Origin: Terriglobia bacterium
Lineage (GTDB): Bacteria; Acidobacteriota; Terriglobia; Bryobacterales; Bryobacteraceae
Reading direction: 5' to 3'
DNA length: 64,000 nucleotides
NCBI GenBank assembly: GCA_021324615.1
Contig: JAJPIT010000081.1
Location: 1 to 64,000, forward strand
Below are positions 52,525-64,000 of this stretch, one piece after another. The position numbers were made by a program, and so were the translations under genes. The first letter of the stretch is position 1; each line of letters begins with the position of its first letter. The notes beneath the pieces were generated by a model. It ran no database searches and was not told the origin of the DNA. It saw only the letters and a list, made by a program, of their open reading frames with translations.

Positions 52525-53347
52525 GTGCACTCGTTCAAAGCGGTTCCCGTACTCGTGACCGGCGCCGGACGCGGCATTGGCAAGCGCCTGGCGATCGGTC
52601 TGGCGGCCAGAGGCGCGCGCCTCGGATTATTGGCGCGCAGCAAGGCGGAGTTGGATCTGTGTCATCTGGAAATCGAGCACGCCGGCGGATCGGCGCTGCG
52701 CATCCGCTGCGACGTGGGCGATTACGAACAGGTCTGCGCCGCGCTGGAGCGGATGCGCGTTCATTTCAACAGCCCGGTGCAGATTCTGATCTGCGCCGCG
52801 GCGCTGCAAGGACCCATCGGGCCGTTTGTCGAAAGCTCGCCCAAATCCTGGCAGGAAGTGATCCAGTCCAACCTGGTGGGCGTCATGAACGCCTGCCGCG
52901 CGGCGCTGCCGGGCATGATCGAGCGGCGGCGCGGAAAAATCATCGTGCTCGCCTGCGGCGGAGCGTCCAGCGGGCGGCCCAACTTCGCCCTATATGCGGC
53001 GACCAAGGCGGCGGTGGCGCGGTTTGTGGAGAGCGTCGCGGCGGAGGTCTCCGAGCACAACGTGCAAGTCAACTGCATCTCGCCCGGCGATACGTACACC
53101 CACATGACCGATCAGATTCTCGCCGGGGGAGCGGGCCGGCTGGCGCGAAATCGAACACGCCAGCCAGACCCGCCTGACCGGCGGCACCCCGCCCGATAAA
53201 CAGTTGGAATTGGCGCTGTTTTTGGCCTCCGAGGCCTCCAATCACATCACCGGGCGCCTGATCGGCGTCATGGACGACTGGAAAAAGCTCAAAAACGGCG
53301 CGATCAGCGAAGAACAGTACACGCTTCGCCGTCTTCAGAAGGGTTAA
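52525..53347 (+). pseudogene. Short-chain dehydrogenase/reductase, broken by one frameshift
   Basis: NAD(P)-dependent SDR oxidoreductase. The intact part has the cofactor loop VTGAGRGIGKRLAIG, CDVGDY, the catalytic YAATK (Tyr/Lys) and NCISPGDTYTHM. After residue about 200 the frame breaks in a run of five G at 53125-53129. Removing one G restores the reading GERAGWREIEHASQTRLTGG and PPDKQLELALFLASEASNHITGRLIGVMDD, then on to a stop at 53347. Without it the frame ends at 53199. A real mutation or a sequencing error in the homopolymer both fit. The start is GTG at 52525. Confidence 0.85.
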
Positions 53348-53444: not shown

Positions 53445-54851
53445 ATGGTGTCCCGATCTTTGAGCACCGCCCGCCCGCTGAAGGCGGCGCGCCGCCAGCC
53501 CGCGCCCGCGCAGCCGACCGCTCCCCCGCCTCAGGCGCCCCGCGCGGCGCCCGCCAGCCTTCCGAGCCGGGGAGCGGAGAACGACGTGCTCCGGAAGATC
53601 GGCTGCGTGCTGACGCTCATTACCGTTTTTGTGCGTTTCACCGGAATTCATGAGTGGATTGCGACGTATACCGGCGACACCTACATCCTGTATTTTCTAG
53701 TTCCCCCCGCGCTGATTGCGATGCTGGCCAGCGGCGGCCTGCGGCGGGCTTTGCAGTGGAATCTGGCCCGCTATTGGCTGGGATTCGCGGCCTGGCTCGT
53801 GCTGGGAATCCCGTTCAGCTCTTATAAAACGGGATCGCTTTTGATGGTTGGGGGCTATCTGCGCACCGAATTCATCATGCTGTTCCTGATCGCGGGGCTT
53901 TTGCTGACGTTTACCGATCTCCGCCGGCTCATGCGGGTCATGGTTTACGCCGCTCTGGTGGAGGTTTTCATGTCCCGCTTTCTGCAATCCGACGAGCTGC
54001 GGACGCGCCTGGAGCTGACCACCGGGACGATGAGCAACGCCAACGATTTCGCGGCGCAATTGGTGATGATGCTGCCGTTTTTGCTGATCCCGCTGCTTTC
54101 CCGCAAACGCAATCTGCTGCTGTGCTCTCTTTCGCTGCTCGGTTTGGGCTACGGGCTTTATCTGATTTTGCGGACCGGTTCGCGCGGCGCGATGCTGGCG
54201 CTGGCGGTGCTCGCGCTGGTCTCTTTCTGGCGCGTATCGGCGGGCTGGAAAATCGCATTTTCGGTTCTTCTGCCGGCGGCGGCCGTCGGTTTAGGCCTGC
54301 TGCTTCCGCCGGAGACGGTGCACCGGCTGTTGACCCTGGAGGATTCCGAGTCGCAGGCCAATGATCCGGTGAGCCACGAGGCCGCCGGCTCGCTCGAGGA
54401 GCGAAGATTTGTTCTCCAGCGGAGCCTGTGGCTCACCATCACGCATCCGGTTTTTGGCGTGGGCACCGGGGAGTTCATGGATGCCGAGGCCCGCGTGGCG
54501 AGAAACGAAGGCCGCCGCGGCGACTGGCATGAAACGCACAACGCCTACACGCAAGTTTCCAGCGAAGCCGGGATCCCCGCGTTTCTCTTTTTCGCCGGCG
54601 CTCTGGCATCGGGTTTCCTTTTGCTGCGGCGGATTCGGCTGCGGTCCCGGAGCCAGCCATCCAACGAACGCAACGATCTGCTTGGCGCGGCGGTGACCGC
54701 CTTAAGCCTGTCGCTGCTCGGATTCTGCGTGGCCATCTTCTTTCTGTCGCTGGCGTACCGGTTTTATTTGCCGGCGCTGGGCGGCATGATCATCGTGGTG
54801 GCGCGGGTTGCCGAACAGGAGTGGCGCCAGCCGGCGCGGAGGGCGGCGTGA
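53445..54851 (+). CDS. O-antigen ligase / polymerase family membrane protein
   Basis: Wzy/WaaL-type protein of 468 residues. After a basic, Pro/Ala-rich cytoplasmic N-terminus (about 55 residues) come about ten to twelve transmembrane helices. The signature loop occurs late: GTGEFMDAEARVARNEGRRGDWHETHNAYTQVSSEAGIPAFLFF, with H-E-T-H-N-A-Y as in O-antigen ligases. It would polymerise or transfer undecaprenyl-linked glycans in the periplasm. Its stop overlaps the GTG start of the next glycosyltransferase. Its start, 98 bases after the SDR end, opens the exopolysaccharide trio. Confidence 0.85.
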   Translation: MVSRSLSTARPLKAARRQPAPAQPTAPPPQAPRAAPASLPSRGAENDVLRKIGCVLTLITVFVRFTGIHEWIATYTGDTYILYFLVPPALIAMLASGGLRRALQWNLARYWLGFAAWLVLGIPFSSYKTGSLLMVGGYLRTEFIMLFLIAGLLLTFTDLRRLMRVMVYAALVEVFMSRFLQSDELRTRLELTTGTMSNANDFAAQLVMMLPFLLIPLLSRKRNLLLCSLSLLGLGYGLYLILRTGSRGAMLALAVLALVSFWRVSAGWKIAFSVLLPAAAVGLGLLLPPETVHRLLTLEDSESQANDPVSHEAAGSLEERRFVLQRSLWLTITHPVFGVGTGEFMDAEARVARNEGRRGDWHETHNAYTQVSSEAGIPAFLFFAGALASGFLLLRRIRLRSRSQPSNERNDLLGAAVTALSLSLLGFCVAIFFLSLAYRFYLPALGGMIIVVARVAEQEWRQPARRAA

Positions 54852-56092
54852 ACCGGGCGGAAGCCGCGCCGGTTTCGGGCGGCCCTTCCCTGATGGTGAT
54901 CTGTAGCTCCTATCCACCGGTCCTGGGGGGAACCGAGGTGGAAGTGCAGCGGGTTTGCGCGGCGCTTCTGGAGCGGGGCTACCGGGTGGAAGTATTGTGC
55001 CGGGGAGGCGCGCCGATGCCGCCGGCGCGGCAGTGGGTGGATGGGGAAGGCGTGCCGGTGCGAATGTTCGGCGGGCGCTGGCCTTCGGCGATTCGCGATT
55101 ACGCGTACGCGGTCGGGGTGGCCTGGACGCTGTGGCGCCGGCGGCGGACCTATCAGATCGCTTATTTCGTGATGGGAGGAGTCCAGCTCGCCCTCGCGCT
55201 GCCGGTGGCGCGGCTGGCGCGCAAGCGAATCTTTATGAAGTTCTCCGGCAGCAACACCGTGGCTCCGCTGACCGCCTCCGCGCTGGGACGTTTCGAACTG
55301 CGGGCGCTGCGGCGGTGGGCCGAACAGGTGCTGGTGTTGAATCCCGGAATGATGGAAGAGGCGCAGGCGGCGGGTTTTCCGCGTTCACAGCTCGGCTGGA
55401 TGCCGAATCCGGTGGATGTCGAGTTGTTTGCTCCGGTGGGCGGCGATTCGAAGATGGAGCTGCGGCGGCGGCTGGGAGTCGCGCCGGAAGCCTTTCTGAT
55501 TTTGTATGTGGGGCGGCTGGCCCCGGAAAAGCGGCTTCCGCTGCTGATGGAAGCATTCGCCGGGATGCGGCGCGGACGCCCGGCGGCGTCGCTGGCGCTG
55601 GTGGGAGACGGACCTCTTCGCCGCGAGCTTGAGCGTCTGGCGGCGCGGCTTGGCATTGACGGCGAAGTCCGGTTTGCCGGCGCGGTTCCTTCGAGCGGAG
55701 TTCGAGAATGGCTCGGAGCGGCGGATGTTTTCACACTGGTCTCCTCGCTTGAGGGTTTCCCTTGCTCGTTAGCGGAGGCGATGGCGGCGGGCCTTCCCGC
55801 AGTGGTGAGCGATATTCCGGGGAATACGCAGTTGGTGCGCGACGGGGTCGAGGGACTGGTGGCGCGCGCGGCGGACCCGGCTTCGATCGGCGAAGCGCTG
55901 GCCGCGCTGGCGGCCGATCCGGAAAAGCGCCGCGCTTTGGGAGCGGCGGCGCGTGGTCTGATTCTGCGCGAATACTCTACCGAGAAAGTGACGGACCGCT
56001 ACGAGCGGCTGTTCGGCGTCCACCCGGCGGGCGCAGGTGCGGTTTGCTCCATCGGCGGCGGAAAGCTGGAAGAGCCGCGCGCGTCACAATGA
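54848..56092 (+). CDS. Glycosyltransferase, GT4 family
   Basis: GT-B glycosyltransferase of 414 residues. Acceptor part SYPPVLGGTEVEVQRVCAAL, with the early G-G-T-E loop of GT4 enzymes; donor part ILYVGRLAPEKRLPLLMEAF, LVGDGPLRRELERLAARLG and SSLEGFPCSLAEAMAAGLPAVVSDIPGNTQLV with the E-G-F-P...E-A-M-A-A-G motif. Set to start at the GTG that overlaps the O-antigen ligase stop (GTGA); the stop overlaps the polysaccharide deacetylase ATG. Three coupled genes argue for one surface-glycan pathway. Confidence 0.9.
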   Translation: MNRAEAAPVSGGPSLMVICSSYPPVLGGTEVEVQRVCAALLERGYRVEVLCRGGAPMPPARQWVDGEGVPVRMFGGRWPSAIRDYAYAVGVAWTLWRRRRTYQIAYFVMGGVQLALALPVARLARKRIFMKFSGSNTVAPLTASALGRFELRALRRWAEQVLVLNPGMMEEAQAAGFPRSQLGWMPNPVDVELFAPVGGDSKMELRRRLGVAPEAFLILYVGRLAPEKRLPLLMEAFAGMRRGRPAASLALVGDGPLRRELERLAARLGIDGEVRFAGAVPSSGVREWLGAADVFTLVSSLEGFPCSLAEAMAAGLPAVVSDIPGNTQLVRDGVEGLVARAADPASIGEALAALAADPEKRRALGAAARGLILREYSTEKVTDRYERLFGVHPAGAGAVCSIGGGKLEEPRASQ

Positions 56093-57093
56093 GAACGCTG
56101 ATCAAACAGGGGGCGCTCCGCGCGCTGCGGTCGGCCGGCCTTTTTCGCATCGCCGCGGGATCCAAGATGCGGCGCGAACGGCTGCTGATCCTGTGCTACC
56201 ACGGCATTTCCCTGCGCGACGAGGAGCGGTGGGAAGAGCTGCTCTATATCAGCCCGCGCCTGTTCCGGCAGCGTCTGGAAACGCTGCGGCGCTTCGGCGC
56301 CCGCGTGCTGGAGCTCGGCGAGGCCCTGCGGCGGCTGCGCGAGCGCAGCTTGCCGCCGCGCAGCGTGGTCCTGACCTTCGACGACGGTTTTTACGATTTT
56401 CACCGGAACGCGCTGCCGCTGCTTGAAGAGTTCGGCTACCCTTGCACGCTCTATCTGACCACGCATTACTGCCGTTACCGTTTTCCGATTTTCAATCTGG
56501 TGGTGCCCTATGTGCTTTGGAAATCGGGCCGCCCGGCGATGGATCTGAGCCGGTTCGGAGCCGCGGGGGAGGTCGGCATCGCCAGCCGGGAAGAGCGGCT
56601 GGCGGCGGTGCGCATGGTGGCGTCGTTCGCGGAAAAACACGGGATGGATACGGCGGCGAAGAACGATCTGGCGGCGGAGATCGCCGAAGCGGCGGGGATC
56701 GATTACGGCGAGCTGGTGAAGTCGCGGATTTTGCAGATCATGAGTCCGGAAGAAGCGGCGGAAGCGCACGCGGCCGGGGTCGATCTGGAGCTGCACACCC
56801 ACCGCCACCGCACGCCGCCCCAAAGGGAGCTGTTTTTGCGGGAAATCCGCGATAATCGCGCGCGGATCCGCGAGCTTACGGGCCGGGACGCCGCTCATTT
56901 CTGTTATCCGAGCGGGCAGTACGCCAGTGAGTTTCTTCCCTGGCTGCGGGAATGCGCGGTGGAAAGCGCGACCACCTGCGATCCGGCGCTGGCCGGGCCC
57001 GCGAGCGATCCGCTGCTGCTGCCGCGCCTGCTCGATCACAGCCGCATCACCGAGGTGGAGTTTGAGAGCTGGCTTTGCGGCCTGGTGGCGTGA
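56089..57093 (+). CDS. Polysaccharide deacetylase (NodB-type, CE4)
   Basis: CE4 deacetylase-like protein of 334 residues that would remove N-acetyl groups from a glycan. The first metal motif TFDDG (in VVLTFDDGFYDF) and the second, H-T-x-x-H (in LELHTHRHRTP), are both present, with CYPSGQYASEF as the later RPP-like block. No signal peptide is evident, so it may act in the cytoplasm on precursors. The start is fixed by the four-base overlap with the upstream GT4. The open frame before it is a shadow. Confidence 0.88.
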   Translation: MRTLIKQGALRALRSAGLFRIAAGSKMRRERLLILCYHGISLRDEERWEELLYISPRLFRQRLETLRRFGARVLELGEALRRLRERSLPPRSVVLTFDDGFYDFHRNALPLLEEFGYPCTLYLTTHYCRYRFPIFNLVVPYVLWKSGRPAMDLSRFGAAGEVGIASREERLAAVRMVASFAEKHGMDTAAKNDLAAEIAEAAGIDYGELVKSRILQIMSPEEAAEAHAAGVDLELHTHRHRTPPQRELFLREIRDNRARIRELTGRDAAHFCYPSGQYASEFLPWLRECAVESATTCDPALAGPASDPLLLPRLLDHSRITEVEFESWLCGLVA

Positions 57094-57108: not shown

Positions 57109-58632
57109 TCAACCGATCGGAATCACCTCGCCGCCCCGGCTTTGGATGAAAAACGGGCGCGGGCCGGCCAGAGGAAGCAACGGGCGCAGCCAGGGCTTGT
57201 AGCGCAGGGGGGCGATGACGGTCCGCGGGCCGGGGTGTTGGCGCAGGAAGCCGATAAACTCCGGCTCGGCTCCGCGCAGCTCCAGCACATCGCGGTTGAT
57301 CAGAATGCCTTGAACCGGCCGCTCCGGAAAAGCGAAGACTGGCGCGCCAGGAGGCTCCTTGTTCACCAGCAGATCCTTGCGGACGGCGGAGCCGTTTTCG
57401 CAAATCACGTTTTCCGGCAGACGGAAGCCGTTGACCACGTACATCTGGTTCATGGTGGCGACATCGGTCAGAAAGACCTGCGCGGGATGAAGGCGGGCGT
57501 AACGGAGCAGATCCGCTGAGATCTTCACGTCATCGCCCCACCGGCCTCCGGCGGCGGAACAGGCGAACTGGACAGCGATGGCAAACAGCAGGATCGAACC
57601 GGCCCAGGCGGGACAGCGGCGAAATACGATGGCCAGACTTGCGGGAAGCACCGCGGCGACAGCCACCGTGACGATTCCGTAATAGTGAATTTCGCGATAT
57701 AGTGGCTTGTACGCCCAGGGAACCTTGGTGCCGTATCCAAGCCAGGCCCAGGTAAGGAAAGCGCTGAGGAAAAGGAGCTTCTGGCGCCAGCATAATGCCT
57801 TCCAGGCCAGGACGCCGGCGGCAAGGGTCAGTATGAGGCTGCATCCGAACGCTTTTCCCAAAATCAGGTTGCGGACGGGCCAGAGAAAGAAAGCCAGGCC
57901 GGCGAGGTGGGTGTCGGGATCGGAATCGAAGGCTTGGTTTGCGCTTTCCGAGGCGGACATGCGGAAGCGCGCCAGCGCGTCGCCGAGCAGATGCTTGTAG
58001 ACAACCGCCTCGATCAGCACCAGACAGAGGGAGAACAGCAGGCAGGCGGTCACCGGACCGAGGAATCGTCGGCGGTCGAACAGCAGCGCTAGGAGGCAGA
58101 AGATTCCGATGTAAAATACACTCAACTCGTGCGTGCTGAAGGCGAGGGCGAACAAAGCCGCGCCCGCCCAGCGGATTTTTGGGCCGTCCTGAAGCAGGCA
58201 GGCGGTTCCGAGCGCGAGAAGACCGGTGGCGACGGTGATGGCGCCGGCGGTGGACCGCGCGCCGACATCGAGCGGCATGGTGGCGGCGACGAGCATCGCG
58301 CCGGTGGTTTGCCAATTCAGCTTGGCGGGCCAATGGACGATCCAGGCGACGGAAACAAGAATCGCCAGCGAGGCGGCCAGCGAGGGCAGGGCGGCGGTGA
58401 AGGCGGAGGGCCCGAACATCAGGAACGCAGCGCGGATCGCCAGAATGGCGGGAATGCGGAACTCCCACCAGTTGATGGGCGGGCGGTGAAAGAGAAAGGC
58501 GTAGCGGGCGTAGAACATGTCGTCCGCGCCGGCGTAGCCCACCCAGAACAGGGCGGTCATGGCGAGCCAGACGGAAGCGACGGCGCCGATCGCGACGGGG
58601 CGGCTCCAGATCCGCCCGGACACGCTCTGCAT
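57109..58632 (-). CDS. Multi-membrane glycosyltransferase, GT39/ArnT-like
   Basis: Polytopic protein of about 507 residues (ATG at 58632). The first helix, AIGAVASVWLAMTALFWVGYA, is followed by the acidic pair in AGADDMFYARYAFLFHRPP, the expected GT-C catalytic loop. Some ten further helices follow, then a soluble C-terminal domain (DVATMNQMYVVNGFRLPENVICENGS, then FAFPERPVQGILINRDVLELRG). It would transfer a sugar from a lipid-phosphate donor outside the inner membrane. Converges with the deacetylase gene (15-base gap) and is divergent from the secreted pair. Confidence 0.78.
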   Translation of the reverse strand: MQSVSGRIWSRPVAIGAVASVWLAMTALFWVGYAGADDMFYARYAFLFHRPPINWWEFRIPAILAIRAAFLMFGPSAFTAALPSLAASLAILVSVAWIVHWPAKLNWQTTGAMLVAATMPLDVGARSTAGAITVATGLLALGTACLLQDGPKIRWAGAALFALAFSTHELSVFYIGIFCLLALLFDRRRFLGPVTACLLFSLCLVLIEAVVYKHLLGDALARFRMSASESANQAFDSDPDTHLAGLAFFLWPVRNLILGKAFGCSLILTLAAGVLAWKALCWRQKLLFLSAFLTWAWLGYGTKVPWAYKPLYREIHYYGIVTVAVAAVLPASLAIVFRRCPAWAGSILLFAIAVQFACSAAGGRWGDDVKISADLLRYARLHPAQVFLTDVATMNQMYVVNGFRLPENVICENGSAVRKDLLVNKEPPGAPVFAFPERPVQGILINRDVLELRGAEPEFIGFLRQHPGPRTVIAPLRYKPWLRPLLPLAGPRPFFIQSRGGEVIPIG

Positions 58633-58746
58633 CGGCCGATTATAGCAGTCTCCGGCCCGGCGGATCTCTGCGCGGAAGCAAGCAGATGGCATTTTGAAGC
58701 GGCATCGGCCGGCGAGTTAGCATGCTGTTCTGAGGGCGAGGAAATC

Positions 58747-60072
58747 ATGCGCAAATTCAAGACTCTTTTGCTGGCGTGGGCCGCGGCGGCGTCCGTCTGG
58801 GCCCAGGTCCCGCCGGAAGCGGCGATCGGCCACTCGAACTTTTCCAATTTCTCGGGCACGCGGCCGTTTCAGGTCGGCTCCGTGCTGCCGGCGGTCTGTT
58901 CGGTGGGCCAGATGTTTTTCAACACTTCGGCGCCCAGCGGGCAGAACGTGTTTGCCTGCACGGCGGCAAACGTATGGTCGATGATCGGCGGGGGCAGGGG
59001 AAGCGGCTCGGTTACGGCCAGCGGGGTGGGCGCCGCATTGGTGGTTGCCGACACTGGAACCGTGAACGCTTACGCGGGCTGTCCGGATCCCAACACAGCA
59101 CTTTCCGACGGGGTCATTTTAGTGCTGCGCGCGCTGGCGACCAACACCGGCCCGAGCACGATTTCGATCTGCAACGGGCCGCCGGTGCCGATCGTGCACG
59201 CCAATGGTTCATCCCTGGGGGCGGGCGAGATCATCGCGGCGACGGCGTCCAATCCGGCGCAGGCTATTCTGATTTATCATGCCGCGTCCGGGCGCTTTGA
59301 GCTGGCTAATCAGCCCTATCCCATCCTGCCGGTGCAAAGTCTGACCAGCCGGAGCGCGGTGCCGGTGACCAATGGCGCGGCGTTCACCTACATGCACGCC
59401 ATGCTGAATCCGGGCGACGGGAGGCGCACGGCGATGTGGCTGGCCAACGGCGTGGCCATCGATCAGATGGGCGCGGCGTTCACTTCCACCACCTCGGCCG
59501 GATCCAGCTCCGCGGTGGCTCCGGCGGGCAGCAATCCGGTGATGTACTCGACCACCACCGGAACCACTTCGGGCAACTCCGCGGCGCACTTCACCGGAGC
59601 GAGCGGGACCAACGCCTATCTGTTCCACACCGGGCGCAACCTGGCGTTCAACTGGAGCGGCCAGTTCGGCGCGGTCACCTCCGCGCGACTGTACGTATGC
59701 ATGACCAACTTCGCCACCTCCACCCTGGTGACGACCGACACCCCGCAGACCGCGGGATCGGCCATCTGCTTCCAGTACTCGACTTCTGCCGGACAGTCTA
59801 CCTGGCAGTGCTATGTCACCAATGGCTCGGCCGCCAGCACCGCCGACACGGGCGTCGCTCCCGACACTAATCCTCACCAGTTCGCGGTGATCGTGGACGA
59901 CACCGGAGGAACCCTCCATTTCTACATCGACACGGTGGAGGTTTGTTCCAACTTCCCTACCACCAATCTTCCGGCGGGAACGAATCTGTCGTTTTCCGCC
60001 ACCGCCACCACACTCGCCGCCCAGCAAAACTCGGTGGCGACTTCTTTCCTCTTTGTGGGCACGGACAGGTGA
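58747..60072 (+). CDS. Secreted protein with phage-tail-like and lectin-like domains
   Basis: Exported protein of 441 residues. The start ATG follows a GAGGA ribosome binding site. Signal peptide (KTLLLAWAAAASVWAQ). A disulfide-type module CSVGQMFFNTSAPSGQNVFAC (about 52-72) resembles short modules of other acidobacterial secreted proteins and phage tail-related proteins. A middle region (about 90-200) is beta-rich. The C-terminal part (about 275-441) reads as a jelly-roll or concanavalin-like fold: NAYLFHTGRNLAFNWSGQFG, ICFQYSTSAGQSTWQCYVTNG, NPHQFAVIVDDTGGTLHFYIDTVEV. Phage head and tail proteins use the same phrase pattern. The stop overlaps the next gene. No function known. Confidence 0.75.
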   Translation: MRKFKTLLLAWAAAASVWAQVPPEAAIGHSNFSNFSGTRPFQVGSVLPAVCSVGQMFFNTSAPSGQNVFACTAANVWSMIGGGRGSGSVTASGVGAALVVADTGTVNAYAGCPDPNTALSDGVILVLRALATNTGPSTISICNGPPVPIVHANGSSLGAGEIIAATASNPAQAILIYHAASGRFELANQPYPILPVQSLTSRSAVPVTNGAAFTYMHAMLNPGDGRRTAMWLANGVAIDQMGAAFTSTTSAGSSSAVAPAGSNPVMYSTTTGTTSGNSAAHFTGASGTNAYLFHTGRNLAFNWSGQFGAVTSARLYVCMTNFATSTLVTTDTPQTAGSAICFQYSTSAGQSTWQCYVTNGSAASTADTGVAPDTNPHQFAVIVDDTGGTLHFYIDTVEVCSNFPTTNLPAGTNLSFSATATTLAAQQNSVATSFLFVGTDR

Positions 60073-61979
60073 TGGCCATGAGACATACAGCCATATGGGC
60101 TTTACTGCTGGCGGCGGCTGTTGCGCGGGCTGGCGCTCCTTATCCGGTGATTGCCTACGGATCGTCCAGCAACTGGACGGGCTATAACGGCTTCATCGGA
60201 CCGGCCACGGTCTTTGCGGGCTACGACACCTACTATTCGTTGCAGCTCCGCTGGGCGGTGGATATCACTTGCGACCACACCACCAACACCTGCAACACCA
60301 ATGGCGGCTACACTCCCACGGGCAGCGAGACTTTGGGGTTGCCCAACATCGGAACGGTGCAGGGTGTGACGGTCACCTCGTCGGCCCTGATGCCGGGGGT
60401 TTCCAGCGGGGGCACCTGCCCGGCGGGCACGTCGATGTGCAGCATTTATGGCGGATCGACGGCCTATTACCACATCTGCAACATCAGCGGAACCCAGTTC
60501 ACCCTGGCCCAGGGGCAGAACTGCTCGGCTCCGCAACAGACCTTCTCCGACAACGGCACCGGTACGCTTTCGATGATCATGGATTATGGCAGTGCGCCGG
60601 TGTATCTTTCGAACTTTTCGGGCTATCCGGCGGGATCCACGGTGCAGTATTGGAACATTCTGTCCGGCGGCATTCTTGGCCAGGCGTACATGTCTGGCGG
60701 GACGCCCTACTTCCCTTACAGCGGCGCGGTGATGGGCGTGCAGCTCCATATTCCGGCCAGCGCGGCTCCCGGCGCTTACACGCTGTCGTTTACGGTGTCC
60801 ACCAATCCCACCGGCGGCGGGGCCACCAGCACCTTCACCTTCCCCATCACTGTGGTGAAAATAACGCCGCTTCCGACCAATCAGGAGCCCACGTCGTTTC
60901 CTCCGATCCCCGGACTGGCCAATTGGGTAACCACGCAGACGGCGGATTCCTGTTCGAGCCTCGGCGGCGGGTTGTGCTGGTGCGATCCCACCACTGGCAT
61001 CACCAACCCCAACCCGATGACCACCTTCGAAGGCAACGTGTGGTACTACGACGGGGCGCGCTCCTACCTGCAAATCGAGCGCTACAACGGCCAGACGGGA
61101 TGGCTGTTGTGCGCCAAGTCGCTGGCGGACTTCTACTACAACTATGCGGCTTCGGGCAACGCGGCGGTCCCTGGCTGGAGGACTTTCCCGCACGGCCTGG
61201 TGTACGAGCAGGGGGTCACCGGCGATACGCGCTACGGGGCGGTGGTGGAGCAGTTCGCTTTTCCGCCCACGGGCTTCCCTTACGGCGGCGGACCTTACGT
61301 GAAGACCGGGGCGTGGATTGATCCGGCCTACATCCGGGAAACTGCGTATGCGCTGGACGTCTACAATGTGCTGGAGGCCGATGCGGGCCAGCCGCGGATC
61401 TACTCGGATCCCACCAACAATTATTACAACCGTTACGGTCCTCCGCCGCCGGGCAACGCGGTGATCGACCGCGCCCAGCAGACCGCCACCTACCTGATAG
61501 AGATGCTGACCATGGACGTGGACGGCATCGCTGCCCGGCAGTTCGGCAAGCAGCCGTTCATGGACGGCCTGGCGATGGAGGCGCTGATCAAGCGGTGGCA
61601 GATCACCCACGATCCGCGCATCCCCTATGTGATCAAGCGCGAGCTGGACGATCTGTACACCAACTGGTACGATTCGGCCAACCACTCCCTGCTGTACAAC
61701 ACCGCGCAGGACGGCGTGGGCTGCTCGTTGACCTCGATGTGGTTTGGGGGCGCAAGCTCATCGATCTGCGGCACGCCTTCGGCGGGATCGGAGATCCTGA
61801 ACAACCTTTATGCGCATGCCTGGGCGTGGTACTGGCGGCTGACGGGACTTTCTCAATATCAGACCCAGGGCGACGATCTGTTCAGCCACGCGCTGGACGC
61901 CGGAATCTTCAACGGAAAGGAATTTAACCAAGTTTACCGGCTCGGCTTCGACTACGTGCGGTGGCGGAGCGGGAGGTAA
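60072..61979 (+). CDS. Large secreted protein, unknown, coupled to the previous gene
   Basis: Exported protein of 635 residues (ATG at 60072, or at 60078, in a TGATG overlap). Signal peptide TAIWALLLAAAVARAGA. The N-terminal third is beta-rich with paired cysteines (CDHTTNTCNTNGG, CPAGTSMC). An Ig-like domain follows near residue 220-260 (GVQLHIPASAAPGAYTLSFTVST, ending FPITVVK). The C-terminal half is helical with alternating aromatic and turn residues (AQQTATYLIEMLTMDVDGIAARQFGKQPFMDGLAMEALIKRWQ, LDDLYTNWYDSANHSLLYN, LYAHAWAWYWRLTG), a pattern that resembles alpha/alpha toroid folds of glycan-active proteins. No catalytic residues named. Function unknown. Confidence 0.75.
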   Translation: MAMRHTAIWALLLAAAVARAGAPYPVIAYGSSSNWTGYNGFIGPATVFAGYDTYYSLQLRWAVDITCDHTTNTCNTNGGYTPTGSETLGLPNIGTVQGVTVTSSALMPGVSSGGTCPAGTSMCSIYGGSTAYYHICNISGTQFTLAQGQNCSAPQQTFSDNGTGTLSMIMDYGSAPVYLSNFSGYPAGSTVQYWNILSGGILGQAYMSGGTPYFPYSGAVMGVQLHIPASAAPGAYTLSFTVSTNPTGGGATSTFTFPITVVKITPLPTNQEPTSFPPIPGLANWVTTQTADSCSSLGGGLCWCDPTTGITNPNPMTTFEGNVWYYDGARSYLQIERYNGQTGWLLCAKSLADFYYNYAASGNAAVPGWRTFPHGLVYEQGVTGDTRYGAVVEQFAFPPTGFPYGGGPYVKTGAWIDPAYIRETAYALDVYNVLEADAGQPRIYSDPTNNYYNRYGPPPPGNAVIDRAQQTATYLIEMLTMDVDGIAARQFGKQPFMDGLAMEALIKRWQITHDPRIPYVIKRELDDLYTNWYDSANHSLLYNTAQDGVGCSLTSMWFGGASSSICGTPSAGSEILNNLYAHAWAWYWRLTGLSQYQTQGDDLFSHALDAGIFNGKEFNQVYRLGFDYVRWRSGR

Positions 61980-61986
61980 GTTAGGA

Positions 61987-63678
61987 TTACGGGCGCGGGC
62001 CGCCGCTATTGCCGGCGGCGGTTCGGCGCCAGAGGACGAAGCACGGGCGGCGGTCGGTTGGGGGCTCGAAGCGGAGGGTCCAATCATCCAGGCGCGCAAC
62101 TTCGCGGTAGTTAGGAGCTGGCGCGTCGTTCGATGCGGCGCCGCAGTCGATACCAGCGAGGACGAATTCCGGCGGGTTTTCCAATAATTCAGACACATTT
62201 TCGTTTGAGCGCACCACGCCGGAGCGGAAGTAATAGGTGTTCAGATCCGATTGCGGTCCGGTGAGGAGAATCGGGCGCGAGCCGATAAGGGAAGCGGTCT
62301 CGCGCAGGGGCGGGTTGCCGATCACCCAGTACGGCCAATAAGCAAATCCGGAGTTTATTAAAAACATAGCGGCGATGATGGCTGCAGCCGCGCGCCGCAA
62401 CGGGTCCGCCGGCCAGTTGCCGCCGAGAAAGAAAGCCAGCCCGAGGAGAAACGGAAAAATTACTGGCAGCAAAATGCGAGGAGCCGTCTCCTGTCCGGTG
62501 AGGAGGAACGCGGCCAGTTCGAGCGCGGCGGGGGCGGCGACCGCGGCGATAAGCGATAGATCTTTCCGCGCGGAATAAAGGCCGATCAGCGCGGCAGCCG
62601 CGGTCGCGGCGCTCAGCAGAACCTCTGGTCCACCCGCGGCAAAATTGAGCACGGGCAAATATAAATCCCGCAGCGGCAACATATCGACTCGGGATCTTCG
62701 CGAGTACTCCATCACCTGGGGAATGACCAAGGCGCTGATGAGTAAGCCGCCCAAAGCACCCCAGACGGCTACCCAAAAACCGCGTAACGGCGCGGCGGTG
62801 TCCTGGCGCGAGGAGCGCAAAAACCGCGCGGAGAGAAACCATACGGCGGCGGCGGTTGCGTGGGTAATCGGAAGAACCAGCATCGGCAGCAGGAATCCGC
62901 AGGCCACCGAAGACGCGATAACGTAGGCGATCGCCACCCGCGCGTCGAACTCGCGCCAAACGGCGCACATCAGGAAGCAGGCGATAAAACCGAATGTGAA
63001 TGCGCCGGCATAACCCCTGGCTTGGTCCGCATAGGACACGCAGCGGAAATGGATCACCGCGAGGGCCGCCATTAAGACTGTGATGCGACGCGGCAGCGCC
63101 AGCGTTCCGCAAAGATAAATGGCCGGCGGCGCCGCGCATCCCAGCAGCAGCGACGGAAGGCGCAGCTCCCACTCATGCGTGCCGATGAGTTTCGCCGAGA
63201 AAAACATGAGCAGTGAGTTCAGCAGGTGATTATTTCCGTCGGAGGCGAAGGCGAAGATCACCGGGAGTCCGCGCCGAACAACGCGGACGTACGTATTCAA
63301 CTCATCCCACCAGAGGGAACGATTCAGGGTTGGCAAGCGCAACAGCAGAGCAGCGAAGAAAAGGCCCGATGCGGCGATCCAGTCGCGGTTGGTGAGGCTG
63401 AAATTTCTCGGCGGCCGGTCGAGTCGAGAAGCCGCGTACAACTGCCGCCACAGAAAGAAATTAGCAATGGAAAAACAGCTTATCGCCAGCAAGCTAAGCC
63501 GCACCAACTTAACTCCAGCGATCAGACGCAGCCTCAGGCCCTCGGCCATGGCCGGCAGATGCGGCTCAATCCTCGTTTGAGTGAACAACGCCGCGAAAAC
63601 GGCGGTTACGATCGCCAGAACGATCCAGAGGGCTCCGCCGGGGCGGCTGCGCGGTTTCAGCGATCCTCCTTTCGGCAA
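61987..63678 (-). CDS. Multi-membrane glycosyltransferase, GT39/ArnT-like
   Basis: Polytopic protein of 563 residues. First helix LWIVLAIVTAVFAALFTQ; the loop after the third helix has the acidic pair in LWWDELNTYVRVVRRG, the GT-C pattern, with SFSDG-like FASDGNNHLLNSLLMFFSAKLIG. About eleven helices, then a C-terminal tail (RPILLTGPQSDLNTYYFRSGVVR). The frame opens with TTG at 63678; an AGGAGG sits a few codons inside, four bases before a CTG at 63660, so the true start may be this CTG. Same strand as the gene at the right edge. Converges with the secreted pair with a gap of seven bases. Confidence 0.82.
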   Translation of the reverse strand: MPKGGSLKPRSRPGGALWIVLAIVTAVFAALFTQTRIEPHLPAMAEGLRLRLIAGVKLVRLSLLAISCFSIANFFLWRQLYAASRLDRPPRNFSLTNRDWIAASGLFFAALLLRLPTLNRSLWWDELNTYVRVVRRGLPVIFAFASDGNNHLLNSLLMFFSAKLIGTHEWELRLPSLLLGCAAPPAIYLCGTLALPRRITVLMAALAVIHFRCVSYADQARGYAGAFTFGFIACFLMCAVWREFDARVAIAYVIASSVACGFLLPMLVLPITHATAAAVWFLSARFLRSSRQDTAAPLRGFWVAVWGALGGLLISALVIPQVMEYSRRSRVDMLPLRDLYLPVLNFAAGGPEVLLSAATAAAALIGLYSARKDLSLIAAVAAPAALELAAFLLTGQETAPRILLPVIFPFLLGLAFFLGGNWPADPLRRAAAAIIAAMFLINSGFAYWPYWVIGNPPLRETASLIGSRPILLTGPQSDLNTYYFRSGVVRSNENVSELLENPPEFVLAGIDCGAASNDAPAPNYREVARLDDWTLRFEPPTDRRPCFVLWRRTAAGNSGGPRP

Positions 63679-63755
63679 TAGGCTGCCTTTAAATCCAGCC
63701 TTTCAGACGATAATACGCGATCTTGACCGTCTCGACGAGGCGCGTTTGAGGGCGT

Positions 63756-63819
63756 AAGGAGTTCAATCAAATTTACCGGCTAGGCTTCGACTACGTGCGG
63801 TGGCGGAGCGGACGGCAAG
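63756..63819 (+). pseudogene. Truncated second copy of the C-terminus of the large secreted protein
   Basis: This 64-base stretch matches 61917-61980, the last 20 codons and stop of the large secreted gene, without gaps, at 56 of 64 bases. Only one coding change (Val to Ile) and several silent third-base changes occur, and the stop codon has become CAA. That pattern shows the copy was once an expressed paralogue. No start lies before it: an in-frame TGA is at 63747. It sits between the two opposite-strand glycosyltransferase genes. Confidence 0.85.
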
Positions 63820-63856: not shown

Positions 63857-64000
63857 CTACGCGAAGCGGCGGCCGCTCATCTTCGAGACGATACCAAGCG
63901 CCGCCGCAGCCGCGGCGATCAGAACGAATGGTTGTAAGGGATAACGATACCGCGGATCCGCCTGTACAAGATAGTAAACCCCGGAATAGAGGAGCAGAAT
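63857..64000 (-). CDS. C-terminal part of a membrane glycosyltransferase-like protein (3' end only)
   Basis: The last 47 codons of a gene running off the right edge, with stop TAG at 63857. They contain a helix, the short loop LVQADPRYRYPLQPF, a further helix VLIAAAAAALGIVS and a basic end (KMSGRRFA). The PRYRYP-x-x-P loop followed by a last helix is usual in dolichyl-phosphate-mannose-type or other GT-C membrane proteins. Same orientation as the glycosyltransferase at 61987, separated from it by the pseudogene remnant. Confidence 0.65.
   Translation of the reverse strand: MLLLYSGVYYLVQADPRYRYPLQPFVLIAAAAAALGIVSKMSGRRFA

Follow-up and report, generated by a model that had tools for sequence, protein, structure and literature searches.

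A coupled pair of genes for exported proteins, one with a predicted (alpha/alpha) toroid, in an exopolysaccharide locus of Bryobacteraceae

Two overlapping genes encode exported proteins

The DNA analyzed here (hereinafter, the window) comprises the first 64,000 nucleotides of contig JAJPIT010000081.1, from a soil Terriglobia bacterium (Acidobacteriota) of the family Bryobacteraceae (assembly GCA_021324615.1; genome G000). Toward its end, two adjacent genes on the plus strand, denoted A (58747-60072) and B (60072-61979), encode secreted proteins of 441 and 635 amino acids (aa), respectively. Protein A consists of an N-terminal Cys module, a middle beta region, and a laminin-G/ConA-like C-terminus, whereas in B, a beta-rich N-terminal half is followed by a predicted (alpha/alpha) toroid. 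The TGA stop codon of A (60070-60072) shares a base with the ATG start codon of B (60072-60074), so that the junction reads TGATG, and the junction is similarly tight in 3 further genomes (TAA-g-ATG in G010, TAG-ATG in G013, and TAG-GTG in G019); the coupling of A and B is kept across these four genomes. By eye, both N-termini resemble signal peptides, that of A at 58747-58803 (plus strand; MRKFKTLLLAWAAAASVWA/Q, ...SVWA/QVPP) and that of B at 60072-60131 (plus strand; MAMRHTAIWALLLAAAVARA/G, ...ARA/GAP). Both the overlap, which is borne out by the open reading frame (ORF) coordinates and the bases, and the signal peptides had been pointed out in an initial annotation made from the sequence alone. 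A scan of the two proteins for hydrophobic segments beyond the signal peptides found none, and the PEP-CTERM/exosortase tail (a C-terminal PEP-hydrophobic-basic arrangement) is absent, A ending in ...FVGTDR and B in ...YVRWRSGR, without a C-terminal hydrophobic segment.

Relative to the closest species (G010), the identity is 83% for A and 80% for B, and the dN/dS (nonsynonymous to synonymous substitution ratio) is 0.13 for each; because of these ratios, both are genuine proteins under purifying selection. Full-length A was found in 4 of the 200 genomes of the taxonomic family (G000, G010, G013, and G019), each time directly upstream of B, and B with a matching N-terminal Cys-containing insert in 5 of 237 genomes, the fifth, G127, belonging to another genus. 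In G127, an A-like gene and B stand at the two ends of a plus-strand run of four secreted-protein genes (L121:8656-19051); this genome also carries a second copy of B, without A.

Direct comparison of A and B with Pfam, NCBIfam, and PHROGs gave no match above the cut-off, sequence searches of the PDB, for which A, B, and profiles served as queries, gave no significant match, and nothing direct was found in the literature on EPS (exopolysaccharide) of Bryobacteraceae or Singulisphaera or on the B family. The suggestion of the initial annotation that the two genes form an undescribed, co-encoded secreted surface system is supported, 'undescribed' applying to the family; no library family model covers the core of B.

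The predicted fold and conserved residues of B

The beta-rich region of B (60144-60857, plus strand) includes the Cys-containing insert (residues about 60-170), which is seen in those B proteins that have an A partner, followed by an Ig-like domain. The toroid core (60897-61976, plus strand) belongs to a family for which there is no Pfam or NCBIfam model and no solved relative. An AlphaFold (AF2) model of the core of a Planctomycetota relative (L070), built from 34 sequences, has a pLDDT of 97 and a pTM of 0.94; in the model of the window B protein (pTM 0.78), the same helical core is well predicted and the N-terminus is less certain. The helical, aromatic-rich C-terminal half that the initial annotation had recognized is therefore present, whereas its interpretation as part of a fibre is not retained: judging from the models and the fold search described below, this half of B is an (alpha/alpha) toroid of the enzyme type, not a fibre.

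When the PDB was searched with Foldseek, the solved structures nearest to the core were nearly all (alpha/alpha) toroid carbohydrate enzymes, namely, GH88 (3wiw, template modeling score (TM) 0.66), GH105 (0.62), epimerases of the N-acylglucosamine 2-epimerase (AGE) type (0.51-0.61, the upper value being that of a cellobiose 2-epimerase), and GH76 (0.51-0.58), where the TM values of GH88 and GH105 are normalized to the query length and pertain to topology only. Complement/alpha-2-macroglobulin thioester domains topped the list obtained with the whole of B and were rejected, given their whole-chain TM of 0.14-0.29 and root-mean-square deviation above 24; this reading was dropped also because these domains vanished from the list once only the core was searched.

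Across the family, Asp327 (YYDG motif; codon at 61050-61052, plus strand) is invariant in 32 of 32 sequences and Arg422-Glu423 (RExAY motif; codons at 61335-61340, plus strand) in 31 of 31, and all three residues are retained in the most divergent A-linked B. Their invariance suggests a putative active site, with Asp327 as a candidate catalytic residue and Arg422-Glu423 as candidates for catalysis or substrate binding. Lys616, Gln620, and Arg623, in the C-terminal GKxFxQxYR motif, are near-invariant as well, which is partly built in because this motif was part of the pattern with which the loci were gathered. In the alignment of 32 family sequences, no His and no Cys is conserved in at least 80% of the members and there is no conserved consecutive Asp-Asp, which argues against membership in the AGE, GH127, and GH76 families.

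The GH88/GH105 unsaturated uronyl hydrolases, enzymes that act mostly on lyase products, provide the best fold match, and a weak GH88 echo is detectable in 1 of the 34 B-family members (E=0.0032; none for B itself), but B falls below any family cut-off and the Foldseek E-values exceed 0.001. The GH76 alpha-1,6-mannanases share the toroid and leave a weak profile echo (E=0.17), but the B family lacks a counterpart of the consecutive aspartates, the pair D136/D137 that is named in PDB titles of GH76. The N-acylglucosamine/cellobiose 2-epimerases (AGE superfamily) share the toroid fold and yielded the lowest E-values in the core search; however, these enzymes have a conserved catalytic His pair, unlike the B family, and their usual substrates are free cytoplasmic sugars. 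Finally, the GH127 beta-L-arabinofuranosidases have a Zn-binding Cys set that the B family does not conserve, and the Pfam matches to GH127 are weak (4 of the 34 members, best E=0.0014).

The modules of A

The N-terminal Cys-containing module of A (58804-59076, plus strand), which matched no Pfam model, forms the beginning of a wide variety of secreted proteins in the taxonomic family and is present in 144 of the 200 genomes; being so widespread, it is lineage-typical and tells little about function. The C-terminal domain (59734-59994, plus strand) resembles Laminin_G_3, a ConA-like lectin domain (23.8 bits, E=1e-4, below the Pfam cut-off of 27.6), and two orthologues of A match the same model weakly (best E=2.9e-4). 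Both modules agree with the Cys-containing N-terminal and jelly-roll-like C-terminal parts that were discerned initially, and A is most likely a lectin-like partner of B. A Pfam 'Chitinase C' match of A (4e-4, below the cut-off) is weak and partial, and was not used.

The initial annotation further considered that the pair could be built from phage-derived parts. For A, a tail-like flavor is indeed apparent: 70 residues match a tail protein of a Tunturiibacter (acidobacterial) phage (E=4e-3), the N-terminal module occurs also in three viral contigs, and in G127, the A-like gene (672 aa) and B bracket genes for a tail-fibre-like protein of 1078 aa with FDGTA repeats and a beta-rich secreted protein of 1046 aa, in this order. 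For B, the claim did not hold, no phage record giving a match. These features of A could indicate that A and B form an adhesin or recognition device assembled from phage-tail-fibre-like parts, akin to a cell-borne tail spike, for which the EPS neighborhood would be incidental or a source of ligand. We regard such a device as quite improbable, given that A matches no PHROG family below an E-value of 0.1 (its orthologues reach only E=0.14), that B matches none either, and given the gene neighborhoods.

The pair resides in an EPS locus

Upstream of the pair in the window, on the plus strand, are an O-antigen ligase/Wzy_C-type gene (53445-54851; PF04932, 2e-18), a GT4 glycosyltransferase gene (54821-56092; PF00534, 3e-37), which also scores to PEP-CTERM/XrtA and EPS glycosyltransferases, and a polysaccharide deacetylase gene (56047-57093; PF01522, 6e-17). 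Downstream, on the same contig past the window, are a DUF218 gene, a paralogue of B (B2), a GT2 gene, and a gene for an EpsB_2-type sugar transferase (68628-69959), whose product scores higher than any other of the genome to EpsB_2 (386.5 bits, cut-off 393), an EPS sugar transferase. In G013 and G019, the pair is accompanied by genes for a Wzy_C ligase, a polysaccharide deacetylase, a formyltransferase, GNAT/FemAB proteins, a Wzx flippase, and GT4. The conserved feature around the pair in all four genomes with full-length A is, then, the EPS locus. With 4 of the 5 pairs located in EPS clusters and no genes for phage structural proteins observed in the vicinity of the pair, the neighborhoods speak against the tail-spike-like device.

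The pair is also flanked by minus-strand genes for multi-pass membrane proteins, at 57109-58692 (GT-C-like by appearance, ~8 hydrophobic segments, no PMT_2 match), at 61987-63678 (~11 segments), and at 63857 (~7 segments). The initial annotation took the three for GT39-like enzymes and proposed that A and B make up a glycosylated surface fibre or appendage served by dedicated GT-C glycosyltransferases. The membrane proteins are where it placed them, but none reaches the GT39/PMT cut-off in Pfam; as the 61987 protein scores 13.5 bits against the PMT_2 cut-off of 26.1, 'GT39-like' denotes a weak resemblance. The proposal could draw on the presence of these three genes around the pair and on the richness of A and B in Ser/Thr. 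However, among 25 genomes, the sister species G010 alone has a relative of the 57109 gene; for the 61987 gene, G010 carries a copy of 87% identity, and the relatives elsewhere are distant; G000 and G010 are colinear over the pair region at about 83-84% nucleotide identity. No GT-C relatives were found within reach of the pair in G013 and G019, so that the linkage is confined to two sister species and the other three genomes with the A-B pair are without it. The initial annotation had made conserved linkage the touchstone of its proposal, and because the linkage is not conserved, the idea of dedicated GT-C enzymes fails; with the C-terminal half of B predicted to be a toroid, the glycosylated fibre is highly improbable.

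The B family and its association with EPS genes

A profile search for the B family retrieved 34 loci across about eight phyla (Acidobacteriota, Planctomycetota, Armatimonadota, Firestoneibacteriota, Gemmatimonadota, Nitrospirota, Peregrinibacteriota/Patescibacteria, and ANGP1, plus one contig labeled proteobacterium). In some of these proteins, the toroid is fused within one chain to the laminin-G lectin LamG_3 (L058, 1.6e-18), SLH (L063), dockerin (L084 and L086), glucodextranase domain B (L046), or fn3 and Ig domains. Because the C-terminus of A resembles LamG_3, the L058 fusion is a single-chain version of A and B. On the Peribacteraceae contig L063:9371-17523, three tandem B-family genes, all with SLH, follow a gene whose secreted product (1304 aa) has Ig and SLH domains. 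Relatives of the B core at 25-32% identity are also encoded in five IMG/VR contigs labeled viral (L116-L120).

Such fusions are as fitting for a scaffold at the surface as for an enzyme, and there is no characterized enzyme among the sequence relatives of B. On this view, B would bind carbohydrates without catalysis, its toroid serving as a structural or scaffolding element in the EPS matrix or at the cell surface, and A would be another lectin of the matrix. We consider this unlikely: Asp, Glu, Arg, and Tyr are strictly conserved across very diverged proteins, which exceeds what a scaffold usually needs, and the closest folds of the core are, as indicated above, nearly all enzymes.

The loci were scanned with 15 EPS marker proteins, read against loci without EPS genes. 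Markers were found at the window pair and B2, twice in G010, three times in G013, twice in G019, and at one ANGP1 (L072) and two Singulisphaera loci (L073 and L082); the remaining loci had none. Pfam searches of the ANGP1 and Singulisphaera neighbors identified GT4, GT2, asparagine-synthase-like, GNAT, and oxidoreductase genes, and overall, the EPS-linked B homologues of Acidobacteriota, Singulisphaera, and ANGP1 lie beside asparagine-synthase-like, GT4, GT2, and deacetylase genes. A related GT2 is the next gene in both Singulisphaera loci and lies also beside B2. In the maximum-likelihood tree, the EPS label requires 5 changes, at least 4 of which are imposed by well-supported branches; one supported clade (100/99) unites the four A-linked B proteins that were placed on the tree.

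The predicted role of the pair

Taken together, the coupling, the export signals, the predicted fold, the conserved residues, and the gene context lead us to favor, with moderate confidence, a reading in which A and B are a translationally coupled, exported pair of an EPS locus, B cleaving or modifying the locus's own EPS and A being its lectin-like partner. B is likely to be carbohydrate-active; it probably acts on the EPS of its own locus, and that it does so with A as partner is somewhat favored.

In this scheme, the neighboring glycosyltransferases and other locus genes would assemble the EPS, and A and B would be exported. The beta-rich/Ig-like N-terminus of B would hold the toroid, and the polymer of the locus would bind in the toroid's cavity, which is presumably lined by Asp327, Arg422-Glu423, and the C-terminal GKxFxQxYR motif. 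B would then cleave or modify this polymer, either periplasmically or on the cell surface, working as AlgL does in the alginate cluster, that is, in clearing, trimming, or length control, while A would keep the enzyme attached to the polymer or matrix. Catalysis, the type of bond, the substrate, and a contact between A and B are what we infer here from fold, conservation, family, and context.

Toroids that are exported and process polysaccharides are already known from EPS clusters. AlgL, the PL5 alginate lyase of Pseudomonas aeruginosa, is an (alpha/alpha)5 toroid whose gene belongs to the alginate operon; it rids the periplasm of polymer, and cleavage of the cell's own polymer is its proposed role (PMC8829089). 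B is, likewise, a secreted toroid encoded in an EPS biosynthesis cluster, but there is no detectable sequence relation, and B has the extra N-terminal beta/Ig region and the partner A. Furthermore, the catalytic set of AlgL consists of Tyr, His, and Arg (PMC8829089), whereas the B family conserves Tyr and Arg without a conserved counterpart of the His. Glycosyl hydrolase genes are reported to occur often within EPS clusters (PMC9075953); B would resemble PslG, PgaB, and other EPS-operon hydrolases in position and logic, with a hydrolase gene beside the EPS synthesis genes (PMC9075953, PMC5933820). It differs from these in that the families are unrelated and the A-B locus is of the ligase/flippase type (Wzy_C, Wzx), not synthase-dependent.

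Several observations weigh against the favored reading. The A-B pair is narrow, found in 5 of 237 family genomes, and at one of these pairs, that of G127, no EPS markers were detected in the 20 kb read around it. Most relatives of B, from other phyla, lie outside EPS clusters, and the markers themselves were drawn from the EPS-linked loci, several of the comparison loci having short flanks. As for catalysis, B has no significant match to any characterized enzyme in PDB sequence and profile searches, none of the Foldseek core matches has an E-value below 0.001, so that the kinship is at the level of the fold, and toroids occur also in non-carbohydrate proteins (LanC-like 8d0v in the core search; complement in the whole-B search). 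The partly built-in conservation of the C-terminal motif belongs here as well.

The sequence family of B and the split lectin arrangement appear to be undescribed in the libraries and literature searched. As a tentative extension, B might found a new family of extracellular carbohydrate-active toroid enzymes, with D327 and R422-E423 forming the active site, that were taken into EPS clusters more than once; its partner here would be a lectin composed of phage-tail-like modules, which would target the enzyme to the cell's own polymer. The repeated placement in EPS clusters provides a function prediction for hypothetical proteins of about eight phyla. The EPS of Acidobacteriota and Planctomycetota is hardly studied, and if the prediction is true, an EPS-specific enzyme would be a tool for dissecting soil biofilm matrices. 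A lectin encoded in trans beside the enzyme, where one relative has the two fused in a single chain, would illustrate the evolution of such targeting.

Other features of the locus

The paralogue B2 (contig positions 65833-67272; L041:5834-7273; 479 aa) is divergent from the DUF218 gene and is followed by the GT2 and EpsB_2-type genes, an arrangement shared by G010. Within the window, the ORF of a short-chain dehydrogenase (52525-53199) has an atypical Arg/Pro-rich tail that begins soon after the end of the family profile, and is possibly frameshifted. Between the two downstream GT-C-like genes, a segment corresponding to the 3' end of DUF218 (63685-63738, 89% identical to 65157-65210) is directly followed by one corresponding to the 3' end of B (63756-63819, 88%). 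By these sequence matches, the scar looks like what an internal deletion has left of a divergent DUF218/B pair; an intact pair of this kind is located at 65161-67272.

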